A stretch of 64,000 bases of DNA, taken from the NCBI RefSeq assembly GCF_022846615.1, contig NZ_AP025637.1, positions 4,861,001 to 4,925,000 on the forward strand, read 5' to 3'. Source of the stretch: Roseomonas fluvialis (GTDB lineage Bacteria; Pseudomonadota; Alphaproteobacteria; Acetobacterales; Acetobacteraceae). Below the pieces are notes generated by a model, which saw nothing but the letters and a program-made list of their open reading frames with translations, did no database searches and was not told the origin of the DNA. Below are positions 7,254 to 55,424 of the stretch, piece by piece; the stretch's first letter is position 1, and each line of letters begins with the position of its first letter. The position numbers were made by a program, and so were the translations under genes.

Positions 7254-7853
7254 TCATGTGAAGCGCTGCAGCGCCTGCTCCAACGACGTGAGCGCGCTGC
7301 CCAGCGCCGCGCTCATGGCCTCCGCCGCCTGGTCGGGCGTCGGCGCAGCGGTGCCGGAGGCGAGGGGCGCGGTGCCGCTGCTCACCATTTGGCCGACAAG
7401 CCGGCTGCCATTGCGCTCATCGACCAGCACCAGGGTCAGTTCCGCGCGCGCGCGCCCTTCCCCCTGCACGGCGGCGAGCTGGGTGATCTCGCCTTCGAGC
7501 ACGTAGTCGGGCGTCACGCGCGACCCGGGGGCGAGCACGGCGGAAAACTGCCGCGAATCGATCAGCCAGCGGCGCAGCGCCTGTTCGGCCGATTCCGCCG
7601 GCGGCGCCGCCCATTCTGCGTAGAAGTCCAGGTTCTCCGTGCCGTCCGGGCGTAGCGTGCGCAGGTTGCGCGTCTCCATCCCCGCGCCGGCGCGGATCGT
7701 GCGCACCAACAGGGTGCGGCGCGCGCGCCCCTCGGCGCCCGGTGGCCGGCGCGGCTCCAGCGGGAAGCGCCGCGTCTCGACATAGGGGCGGTCCGGCAGC
7801 ACGGAGCACCCCGCCAGCAGAGGCACCAACAGCAGCAGGCGACGGTCGATCAT
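7254..7853 (-). CDS. ABC-type transport auxiliary lipoprotein (MCE system)
   Basis: The 199-residue protein begins with a lipoprotein signal (LLLLVPLLAGC, lipobox LAGC with Cys ~16), so it should be anchored in the outer or inner membrane facing the periplasm. The rest matches the PqiC/YmbA-like auxiliary lipoproteins: an early LEP segment, a central YLEGEI-type beta strand (VLEGEITQLAA) and a C-terminal helix. In related systems such lipoproteins help MCE proteins hand lipids to the outer membrane. It is the last gene of the mla-like operon, and its ATG comes one base after the stop of the MCE gene, indicating translational coupling. Confidence 0.88.
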   Translation of the reverse strand: MIDRRLLLLVPLLAGCSVLPDRPYVETRRFPLEPRRPPGAEGRARRTLLVRTIRAGAGMETRNLRTLRPDGTENLDFYAEWAAPPAESAEQALRRWLIDSRQFSAVLAPGSRVTPDYVLEGEITQLAAVQGEGRARAELTLVLVDERNGSRLVGQMVSSGTAPLASGTAAPTPDQAAEAMSAALGSALTSLEQALQRFT

Positions 7854-7854
7854 G

Positions 7855-8904
7855 TCAGCGGCGATCCCGTGGCGGTGGTGGCGGCGGCGCGCCGAACAGG
7901 GACTGCGACGGGCTGCGGCGCAGCTGCTCGGCGGTGTCGCGCAGGCTGGAGACGGTCGCGCGCAGGTCGCGCAGCAGCGGGCCAAGGTCGGCCTGCGCAT
8001 CGCCGGTGGTGCCACGCACCGTGCGCAGCGCGAGTTCGAGGGATTGGATGACGGCCGGAAGCCGCGCGACGGCCACGCGCAGGTCGTTCGCGGCCTGTCC
8101 GATGCTGGCCGCGGCGCCGGTGATCTCGGGGCTGGCCAGCAGCGCCTCGGCCGATTGCCCCGCGGCACCCACGCGCGCCGCCGCCTCGCGCAGTTCGCGC
8201 ACGGTGGCGGCAAGGTCCGCACCCTCGATCACGCTGCGCAGCGCGACCATGGTGGCGGCGGCCTCGCGGAGCGTCGTCGCCAGGTCGCCCTGGCCGCCGA
8301 CCTGGTCACGCAGTCCCTCGACCAGCTCGGTCGCCGCGCCGACCAGCGAGCGCAGGTCGAGGTCGGCGAGCTGCGTCATCACGCGTTCGGCCGCGCTGGT
8401 CACCTGGGTGATGGTGGACGGGACCGATGGAATCACCGGATAACGCGGCGTCCAGGGCACCTCGATCGGCGGGAAGCGCGCGGGGTCGGAGACGAAATCC
8501 ACCTCGAGATACGCCAGCCCCGTGACTCCCGAGGATGCCACGCGGACCCGCAGCCCCGCCCGCACGGCGGCGGCGACGTTGATCCGGCCGTAGCGGTCCG
8601 GGTCGACCGCGAACCGCACCAGCACCAGGCGCGCGGTGGTGTCCTCCGGATCCCGCGCGACGGCGCCGTAGACCACCGAAACCAGGCCGAGCTCCGTCAC
8701 GCGCCCGACCGGCACGCCGCGGAATCGCACCGGCGCGCCGACATCGAGACCGGCGATCGATTCCCGCACATAGGTCTCGAAGATGGTCTGCTCGCCGCGC
8801 AGGGAGCCGGAGGTCAGGAACAGGACGAAGCCGATCGCGACGGCGGCGCCGACGACCACGAGCACACCCACGCGGAAATACAACGACCGCCCCGCCTGTG
8901 CCAT
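7855..8904 (-). CDS. mlaD: MCE-domain lipid-binding protein, MlaD family
   Basis: The 349-residue protein has a short cytoplasmic N-terminus, one membrane anchor (~residues 10-32) and an MCE domain (~40-120) with the typical VRFRGVPVGRV stretch. A long helical, Ala-rich tail follows, ending in six consecutive prolines and a basic end. MCE proteins form hexameric rings that carry phospholipids across the periplasm. Length and tail are closer to the longer MlaD homologues of alphaproteobacteria than to the 180-residue E. coli MlaD. It follows the ATPase gene after one base, within one operon (permease, ATPase, MCE, lipoprotein). Confidence 0.92.
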   Translation of the reverse strand: MAQAGRSLYFRVGVLVVVGAAVAIGFVLFLTSGSLRGEQTIFETYVRESIAGLDVGAPVRFRGVPVGRVTELGLVSVVYGAVARDPEDTTARLVLVRFAVDPDRYGRINVAAAVRAGLRVRVASSGVTGLAYLEVDFVSDPARFPPIEVPWTPRYPVIPSVPSTITQVTSAAERVMTQLADLDLRSLVGAATELVEGLRDQVGGQGDLATTLREAAATMVALRSVIEGADLAATVRELREAAARVGAAGQSAEALLASPEITGAAASIGQAANDLRVAVARLPAVIQSLELALRTVRGTTGDAQADLGPLLRDLRATVSSLRDTAEQLRRSPSQSLFGAPPPPPPRDRR

Positions 8905-8905
8905 C

Positions 8906-9898
8906 TCAGGCGGCCTCGCGCCGGAAGAAGGCGCGCACGGTCGGGTGGTCGCTGTTGTCGCGCAGATCGCGCGGGTTGCCCTGCGCGATCATGCCCTGCG
9001 CGGTCTTGTCGAGCATGATGCAGCGGTCGCCGATCGCCAGGATGGATTGCAGTTCGTGCGTGACGACCACGAAGGTGGTGCCGGTGTCGCGCGCGATCTC
9101 CTTGATGAGGTCATCGAGCCCGGCCGAGGTGATCGGGTCGAGGCCCGCGGAGGGCTCGTCCAGGAACAGCAGCGGCGGGTCGAGTGCGAGGGCGCGCGCG
9201 ATGCCCGCGCGCTTGGCCATGCCGCCGGAAATCTCGGCCGGCAGCCGGCCGGCCGCATCGCCGAGCCCGACCAGGCCAAGCTTCGAACGCGCCAGCGCCT
9301 CCCGCGCCGGGCGCGGCAGGCGCGTGTGTTCCTCGATCGGCAGTTCCACGTTTTCGGCCAGGGTCATGCTCCCGAACAGCGCGCCGGACTGCCACATGAC
9401 ACCGATGCGCTGCAACAACGCGCGTCGCGCGGCATCGTTTGCCGCCGTCAGTTCCTCGCCCAGCAGCCAGGCATGTCCGGCGGCCAGCGGCACCAGCCCG
9501 ATCAGCGCCTTGAGCAGCGTGGACTTGCCGCAGCCCGACCCGCCCAGGATGACGAAGATTTCACCTCGCCGCACCTCGAAGGACACGTCCTTGAAGATGG
9601 TGCGCCCGCCGAAGGCAACGGCCAGGTCCTCGGCCCGGATGACAGGGTCCGACGGTACGCCGGTCTCGCGCGGCCGATTCAGCTCTCCGGGCCCTTCGGC
9701 CCTCCGACCATCGGACACGCCGGTCTCGCGCGGCCGATTCAGCTCTCCGGGCCCTTCGGCCCTCCGACCATCGGACACGCCGGTCTCGCGCGGCCGATTC
9801 AGCTCTCCGGGCCCTTCGGCCCTCCGACCATCGGACACGCCGGTCTCGCGCGGCCGATTCAGCTCTCCGGGCCCTTCGGCCCTCCGACCATCGGACAC
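8906..9898 (-). CDS. mlaF: MlaF-type ABC transporter ATP-binding protein; start lies within tandem repeats
   Basis: The ATPase core (last ~250 residues) has Walker A GGSGCGKST, signature SGGMAKR, Walker B LLFLDEPSAGLDP and a switch His, and belongs to the MlaF branch that energises phospholipid transport. The conserved domain is preceded by no ATG. Upstream come four perfect 60-bp repeats, each with an in-frame GTG. Start chosen is the first GTG (9898), 2 bp after the permease stop and behind a GGGGA site, giving 330 residues with four copies of a 20-residue peptide VSDGRRAEGPGELNRPRETG. A start at the last repeat (9718) would give a normal 270 residues. Which start is used is unknown; the repeat-encoded tail would be highly unusual for the family. 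Confidence 0.85.
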   Translation of the reverse strand: MSDGRRAEGPGELNRPRETGVSDGRRAEGPGELNRPRETGVSDGRRAEGPGELNRPRETGVSDGRRAEGPGELNRPRETGVPSDPVIRAEDLAVAFGGRTIFKDVSFEVRRGEIFVILGGSGCGKSTLLKALIGLVPLAAGHAWLLGEELTAANDAARRALLQRIGVMWQSGALFGSMTLAENVELPIEEHTRLPRPAREALARSKLGLVGLGDAAGRLPAEISGGMAKRAGIARALALDPPLLFLDEPSAGLDPITSAGLDDLIKEIARDTGTTFVVVTHELQSILAIGDRCIMLDKTAQGMIAQGNPRDLRDNSDHPTVRAFFRREAA

Positions 9899-9900
9899 GC
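9661..9900. repeat. four perfect tandem copies of a 60-bp unit
   Basis: Positions 9661-9720, 9721-9780, 9781-9840 and 9841-9900 are identical, base for base. They fill the whole space between the permease stop codon and the ATPase core. In the mRNA sense each unit holds two hairpins, TCCGA-TGG-TCGGA and GGGCC-GAAG-GGCCC. Because 60 is a multiple of three, gain or loss of units keeps the ATPase frame. Lack of any divergence points to recent amplification or ongoing homogenisation. Confidence 0.97.
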
Positions 9901-11028
9901 TCAGATCCCCAGCCGGAAGAACAGCACGGCGAACACGCCATCCATCGCCACGATCGCGACGATGCCGCCGACCACCGCGGCGGTCGCCGCATCGCCTACC
10001 GCGCGCGGACCCCGCCCGGCGGACAGCCCCGCGCGGCAGCCGATGCCCGCGATCACCAGGCCGAAGCAGGCCGCCTTGAACAAGCCGCCCACCAGGTCCT
10101 GCAAGGACAACCACTGCTGCAACTGCCCCTGCACGGCGGCCCAGGGATAGCCCAGCGTGTTCATGATCAGCGTCATGCCGGCCAACCCTGCCAGCGACAT
10201 CAGCAGTGCCAGCACCGGCATCACCAGCGTGGCCGCGACCAGGCGCGGCAGCACGAGCATCGCGGTCGGGTCGATGCCCATGATCTTCAACGCGTCCACT
10301 TCCTCGTTCACCGTCATGGTGCCGAGTTCGGCCGCGAAGGCCGATCCGGTGCGCCCGGCCATCACCACGCCGGCCAGCAGCGGCCCCAGTTCGCGCAGAA
10401 GTGAAATGCCCACCAGGTTCGGCACGAAGACCTCGGCCCCGAAGCGCCGCAGCGGGATCGAGGACTGGTAGGCCAGGATCACGCCGATCAGGAAGCCGAG
10501 CAGCAGCGTGAGCGGAAAGGCCCGCGTGCCGACCTCGTCCAGGTGGCGCAGCAGGTCCTGCCAGCGCAGCAGCCTTGGGCGCGCCAGCACGCGGCCGGTC
10601 GTGACCACCGCCTCGCCCAGGAAGGCAACGCCCTTCAGCGATTCCCGCGCGCGGTCCACCGTCGCGCGGCCGACCGCGGTGATCGGCCGCCACGCGGCGG
10701 GCACCTTCGGTGGCGGCGGCGCCGCGGCAAGTGCACGCCGGGTGCGGTCCAGCAGGGCGGCAACCTCGGGCGCGGCGCCCCGGGCTTCGGCATCGGGCGC
10801 GGCTTCGAGCAGCAGCACGGCACCGGCGGTGTCGATGGCTTCCAGGGCCGACAGGTCCAGCACCGCGACGGGCCCGCCCGCAGCAGCCGTCATGGCCGCG
10901 GGCCAAAGCCGCGCCGCGGCCGCGGCGTCGATCCGCCCGGTCGCGGTCAATACGCGCGCGCCGCCATCCTCCGCGAGGTCGAGCCGCGCCGCGGGCAGGT
11001 CTGCCAGGGTTCCGTCCATCGGTCGCAT
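9901..11028 (-). CDS. mlaE: MlaE-type ABC permease with N-terminal STAS domain
   Basis: The 375-residue protein has an N-terminal STAS/anti-sigma-antagonist-like domain (~1-105), corresponding to a fused MlaB. About five to six membrane segments of the MlaE permease fold follow. Characteristic MlaE stretches are visible: the ELGPLLAG motif, the GRTGSAFAAELGTM loop and VNEEVDAL. It forms the membrane core of a phospholipid ABC transporter with the downstream ATPase and MCE protein. No separate mlaB or periplasmic mlaC is present here, which agrees with the STAS fusion. It is the first gene of the four-gene operon; 37 bp separate it from the methyltransferase gene upstream, read in the same direction. 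Confidence 0.93.
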   Translation of the reverse strand: MRPMDGTLADLPAARLDLAEDGGARVLTATGRIDAAAAARLWPAAMTAAAGGPVAVLDLSALEAIDTAGAVLLLEAAPDAEARGAAPEVAALLDRTRRALAAAPPPPKVPAAWRPITAVGRATVDRARESLKGVAFLGEAVVTTGRVLARPRLLRWQDLLRHLDEVGTRAFPLTLLLGFLIGVILAYQSSIPLRRFGAEVFVPNLVGISLLRELGPLLAGVVMAGRTGSAFAAELGTMTVNEEVDALKIMGIDPTAMLVLPRLVAATLVMPVLALLMSLAGLAGMTLIMNTLGYPWAAVQGQLQQWLSLQDLVGGLFKAACFGLVIAGIGCRAGLSAGRGPRAVGDAATAAVVGGIVAIVAMDGVFAVLFFRLGI

Positions 11029-55025: not shown

Positions 55026-55123
55026 GCTGCGAATCCGTGCGCGAGGTGCGGCGACCTTATGCGCTCAAGCCCGTGGCGTGAATCGGGCGCGGGTGAAACT
55101 TCGGCCATGCGACAGGTCGGACC

Positions 55124-55386
55124 GCGGCCAAGCCGCGATCCGCGAGCGCGAATGCGCGACCGCGCCCAGACCATTAACCGCGCCGGGCGATCCACCCCAT
55201 GGCGCGAAGGCAAGGCGGCCGGATGGCCGCCGCCCGCCGCCTGAGGGTCAACAAAACGGATCGCGGCACGCCGCGATCCGCGAGCGCGAATGCGCGACCG
55301 CGCCCAGACCATCAACCGCGCCGGGCGCTCCAGCCCCCGGCGCGAAGGCAAGGCGGGCGGATGCCCGCCGCCCGCCGTCGGAGGGA
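55124..55386. repeat. two tandem copies (138-bp period) of a dispersed GC-rich repeat
   Basis: Copies at about 55124-55247 and 55262-55386 share CCGCGATCCGCGAGCGCGAA, then the 95-bp element also found at 2131-2225. The terminal hairpin differs in matched arms (GGCGGCCGGATGGCCGCC in one, GCGGGCGGATGCCCGC in the other), so base pairing has been kept while sequence changed. They lie between uppP and the TRAP receptor gene. Confidence 0.85.
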
Positions 55387-55388
55387 CG

Positions 55389-55424
55389 AAAAAAAGCCAG
55401 CTGCCGCGCCTACCGCGCGGCAGC
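55389..55424 (-). terminator. rho-independent terminator of the TRAP receptor gene
   Basis: A 10-bp perfect stem GCTGCCGCGC/GCGCGGCAGC (55400-55409 and 55415-55424) with a 5-base loop overlaps the last codons of the gene. In the minus-strand sense, a short GG linker precedes seven T. It is a strong intrinsic terminator on the minus strand. Confidence 0.9.

Follow-up and report, generated by a model that had tools for sequence, protein, structure and literature searches.

The genes for the permease and the ATPase of an Mla-type ABC transporter in Roseomonas fluvialis are separated by four identical 60-bp repeats, which raises the question of where such repeats come from and whether they are read as part of the ATPase. 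The locus lies in a window of 64,000 nucleotides, the whole stretch of DNA that was analysed, and the operon brings together an MlaE permease, an ABC ATPase, MlaD and an auxiliary lipoprotein (Table 1).

An initial annotation had described four perfect copies (9661-9900) that fill the space from the permease stop codon to the ATPase core, and it was accurate on both points. TRF reports a period of 60 with 4.1 copies and 100% matches at 9657-9900 (score 488), a covariance model of the unit gives four matches of 78.2 bits each in the array, and the first base of the array is the base right after the permease stop TGA. Perfect head-to-tail copies of 60 bp are not due to chance. The conserved ATPase domain had also been said to have no ATG, and between the end of the array and this domain there is no in-frame ATG, GTG or TTG. 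The expected peptide VSDGRRAEGPGELNRPRETG is present in the ATPase frame, which is one of four frames that stay open across the array, in agreement with the earlier count of at least four.

Table 1. Features of the repeat array and of the surrounding operon in the window
Feature	Position	Strand	Remarks
Repeat copy 1	9841..9900	-	60 nt, hairpin 9848-9900 plus 7-nt tail; abuts permease stop; GTG 9898-9896 within it is the probable ATPase start (inferred)
Repeat copy 2	9781..9840	-	hairpin 9788-9840
Repeat copy 3	9721..9780	-	hairpin 9728-9780
Repeat copy 4	9661..9720	-	hairpin 9668-9720
GANTC sites, copies 1-4	9856-9860, 9796-9800, 9736-9740, 9676-9680		window sequence
ABC ATPase (MlaF-like) with proposed N-terminal tail	8906..9898	-	PF00005; 330 codons plus stop from copy 1 GTG; conserved core 8906-9658
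MlaE-type permease with STAS domain, upstream gene	9901..11028	-	PF02405, PF13466; stop TGA 9903-9901
MlaD-type substrate-binding protein, same operon	7855..8904	-	PF02470
ABC_trans_aux lipoprotein, same operon	7254..7871 (start provisional)	-	PF03886

A dispersed palindromic family behind stop codons

The unit is not private to the Mla locus but belongs to a dispersed palindromic repeat family. In the same genome, blast with the array finds four further, diverged places and the covariance model finds 18 unit matches. Blast matches were obtained in 14 of 59 genomes, all in the same genus. With the covariance model, 34 of the 35 genomes from this genus hold at least one unit (E<=1e-4) and units occur in 20 of 102 sampled genera of Acetobacteraceae (E<=1e-7), with none in 141 other genomes sampled across the class. 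A pattern scan gave, among the matches listed, Falsiroseomonas, Neoroseomonas, Plastoroseomonas, Siccirubricoccus, Belnapia, Paracraurococcus, Dankookia, Roseococcus, Paeniroseomonas and others, and in some genomes all 48 of the 48 scored candidates matched the model. An even 800-kb sample of one of these high-copy genomes, G262, holds 19 units at E<1e-4, which extrapolates to about 130 per genome. Plasmid records searched with the repeat peptide gave no match, Rfam, searched up to E=1, had nothing matching the array, and no described repeat of this kind in Roseomonas or Acetobacteraceae was found in the open-access literature.

Each unit is composed of a 53-nt hairpin and a 7-nt tail. An alignment of 28 units supports a single coding-strand hairpin of 19 bp in each of them, with 94.7% of cells paired, and its layout is an outer stem, CCGAT/ATCGG, GACC/GGTC and an apical stem. 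Both sides have changed at 10 of the 19 pairs (53 cells), a level that was reached in none of 500 shuffles and that slid controls fell far below. The outer stem varies, and exchange between G-C and C-G is frequent in the apical stem. Eight hairpins had been proposed for the array, whereas the covariation backs a single long hairpin of 19 bp in each unit and so a total of four. Pairing is about equal across the orientation classes (0.90-0.95); hence, the hairpin is a property of the element and not of one context.

Related hairpins with longer, variable apical stems and similar CCGAT and GAATCGG arms occur at other loci of the same genome (L066, L067, L068, L069 at G000:C1:3612743-3612897, and L070) and are probably subfamilies of the repeat. 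The window itself holds another repeat in an apparent intergenic region at 55129-55394, where two direct copies of 128 nt (90% identical, 138 nt from start to start) carry inverted repeats resembling GATCGCGGC and GCCGCGATC. Adjoining this 138-bp repeat, GGCGTGAATCGGGC at 55074-55092 resembles the 3' arm of the family; no 5' arm was seen there and no model match.

The placement of the family was assessed against genes from seeded codon-usage calls made for this analysis, not from curated annotation. The 178 distinct arrays comprise 125 single units and 53 arrays with two to six units; 144 lie in sense orientation behind a gene and 27 in antisense. The first unit of the sense arrays is at most 3 nt from the stop codon in 110 of the 144 and exactly behind it in 74, and spacings at background junctions are widely spread. 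Eight antisense arrays adjoin the stop of the antisense gene. The exact position behind stops may reflect a preference for TGA as target, selection, or both. Whether the element brings its own stop codon was also considered, and this is ruled out at mla, where the permease C-terminus is essentially unchanged and equally long with and without the element in the 22 resolved genomes. Reverse-oriented units were seen where an ABC ATPase gene begins, in L020 (G016:C601) and L003 (G000:C1:3493632). The reverse frame of L020, a further open frame of this element, reads MTGPNQTSGPSGPPVIG... in frame.

Probable reading through the unit at stop-start overlaps

An upstream stop of the form ATGA or GTGA overlaps a start codon, and the element then follows that start. 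At 37 of 53 such junctions the frame of this start stays open across the element and continues into the downstream gene, compared with 8 of 36 junctions with other stops (Fisher p=1.2e-5). The excess is seen within the genus (p=0.003) and also among genomes outside it (p=0.005). The extra residues spell (M/V)SASDDRSAEGREGLNRPRQ with variants, and the proteins bearing them, as named from sequence reading, are presumably ABC ATPases, a cupin, CoA transferases, acyl-CoA synthetases and others. Two sets of orthologues carry exactly 60 nt more per unit with the native start retained. For example, the eutC start lies at -18 before the conserved anchor without a unit (most genomes), at -78 with one (G028) and at -138 with two (G016). 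Likewise, a hydantoinase-type protein starts at -9 without a unit (several genomes) and at -69 with one (G006, G010). At stop-start overlaps, to judge from these sequences, the unit is probably read as an extra block of 20 amino acids that starts the next protein. A small palindromic element would in this way extend many unrelated proteins at their extreme N-termini, and the start-site annotation of element-bearing genes is likely to be inconsistent.

The period of the array is a multiple of three in 27 of 27 in-frame arrays and in 7 of 14 elsewhere, a test that is partly circular because openness enters the in-frame classification. The synonymous fraction is 0.29 in frame and 0.31 elsewhere. 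A codon-position test gave p=0.006, a value weakened by the relatedness of the sequences, and the difference is only suggestive of protein-level selection on the peptide; the peptide is not clearly under such selection. Another possible start lies within 15 codons after the array in 22 of the 37 in-frame cases. In the even sample of G262 none of seven stop-adjacent elements is in frame, and hence fusion to the N-terminus is one outcome but not a general rule. Two further eutC starts, L267 in G032 and L271 in G011, are 36 and 75 nt longer and include residues such as DDAALNRP; these extensions look like decayed units kept in frame.

The Mla junction and the start of the ATPase

Among 22 resolved genomes of the genus, 19 lack the element at the Mla junction. 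The carriers are G003 (two units plus a decayed stretch), the window (four) and G018 (five), which gives relatives with 0, at least 2, 4 or 5 copies. Across the 22 genomes the gap from stop to core is always 2 mod 3, and it measures 254, 320 and 191 nt in the three carriers. On a weak tree the three carriers need up to three changes at mla and may still have a single origin; the arrays of the window and G018 may descend from one shared insertion, so that the keeping of frame counts as two or three independent cases.

In the element-free genomes G020 and G021 the ATPase start is at TGAGCGTG, and an identical GTG stands at that place in the window and in G018, now within copy 1. Copies 2-5 of G018 are without this GTG, and its confinement to copy 1 suggests that the copy 1 start has been kept by selection despite one later in-frame GTG. 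The window has the GTG in all four copies, as is expected if the copies derive from copy 1. The ribosome-binding context is best at the copy 1 GTG (-5.5 vs -3.0 kcal/mol), and an alignment of the ATPases from the three carriers runs across the tail free of stops. The position of the start in relatives, the Shine-Dalgarno strength and the lack of another usual start before the core together place the ATPase start at 9898-9896 (330 residues); the protein most likely begins at the copy 1 GTG and would carry about 80 extra residues. The initial annotation is thus partly supported in its overall interpretation: the N-terminal tail gains from the comparison (frame kept in 22 of 22 genomes, and exact 60-nt in-frame inserts in two other genes), and its range of 0 to 4 copies in the ATPase narrows to a probable four, given the position of the copy 1 GTG, its Shine-Dalgarno context and G018.

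The array is likely to be a dispersed element that settled behind a stop codon and grew in tandem, with the ATPase translated from the copy 1 GTG through all copies. A copy of the 60-nt palindromic element, which is characteristic of Roseomonas-group Acetobacteraceae, would have arrived behind the permease stop, beside the native ATPase start, and would then have multiplied to four copies. The identity of the four window copies points to recent expansion or homogenisation. As each unit spans 20 codons and has no stop in the ATPase frame, translation from the copy 1 GTG would run through every copy. The resulting tail of about 80 residues is probably unstructured and would be tolerated by the protein. 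The structure model of the tailed ATPase, with a mean pLDDT of 39 that likely stems from a shallow alignment, is of too low quality to bear on the tail. RNA hairpins at the point of termination and reinitiation may also modulate coupling, and the family offers a natural series of 0, 1, 2, 4 and 5 copies for the effect of a hairpin and extra codons at such a site.

Other explanations and known repeats

A purely intercistronic array, acting as an RNA or DNA element whose hairpins tune the ATPase level while translation of the ATPase begins past it, or at its last GTG, from a weak or non-standard site, is improbable. Away from stop-start overlaps the family is mostly intercistronic and the following gene often starts 10-25 nt past the hairpin, a strong hairpin is kept in every orientation class, and the G262 sample has no in-frame case. 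However, such an array is difficult to reconcile with the missing start codon between the window array and the conserved core, with the frame held at all three element-bearing Mla junctions, and with the exact 60-nt inserts in eutC and the hydantoinase gene.

A role at the DNA level is also conceivable, in which CcrM would methylate the GANTC palindrome, as in the CIR repeats of Caulobacter, and the coding effect would be a by-product. GANTC is present in 229 of 258 family units (89%) against 0.06 expected per unit, and the unpaired GA of GAATC is nearly invariant, but a DNA-only role has no need of placement at stop codons and in sense (144 sense vs 27 antisense arrays) and is judged very unlikely. 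CIR repeats, reportedly treated by Chen and Shapiro in 2003, are inverted repeats with a GANTC site, a feature shared with the present family; in CIR the site lies in one arm and the repeats are longer, over 100 bp. They are associated with CcrM (GANTC) sites in Alphaproteobacteria and are strictly intergenic (PMC10969869), and they have no reading frame (table in PMC2229807), whereas the present family has in-frame coding cases.

That the element is a RAYT-mobilised REP (IS200/IS605-type) is scarcely credible, for although it is palindromic, dispersed, 3' of TGA and without obvious target duplication at some sites, the GTAG tag is absent and Y1_Tnp (PF01797) is missing from its own genome, from 34 of 35 genomes of the genus and from 9 of 9 element-rich genomes of the family, that is, from all but one of 44 genomes in a search whose control was positive in five known genomes. 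The family thereby poses the question of how elements reach positions behind stops without a known transposase. One answer, possible but doubtful, is that an unknown dedicated mechanism places clade-specific elements behind stops, and that tandem blocks of 20 residues rewrite downstream N-termini at overlaps, possibly setting the translational coupling of operons.

REPs of the GTAG and CGTC super-families are small dispersed hairpins of 20-40 bp, mostly downstream of coding regions and usually head-to-head dimers, with stems of 5-13 bp in the GTAG type and 8-9 bp in the CGTC type; the latter has no known transposase and is reported missing in Acetobacteraceae (PMC3733652). The present family, in contrast, has a 19-bp hairpin, head-to-tail arrays and no tag motif. 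By the published definition of the tags (PMC3733652), there is no GTAG, and CGTC-like bases lie inside the 19-bp hairpin; nor was a RAYT flanked by repeats, as for GTAG REPs, found.

Rickettsia palindromic elements (RPEs) are dispersed palindromes of Alphaproteobacteria with an open frame that lie in frame in unrelated proteins (PMC2229807; PMC10969869). The present family is alike in that an open-frame palindrome lies in frame with unrelated proteins. Compared by description, RPEs measure about 105-150 bp and occur within Rickettsia genes, whereas the unit of the family is 60 bp, sits behind stops, would add to the extreme N-terminus, is often tandem and belongs to another clade. The family is thus like RPEs at the protein level and differs from them in length, clade, stop-start location and tandem growth.
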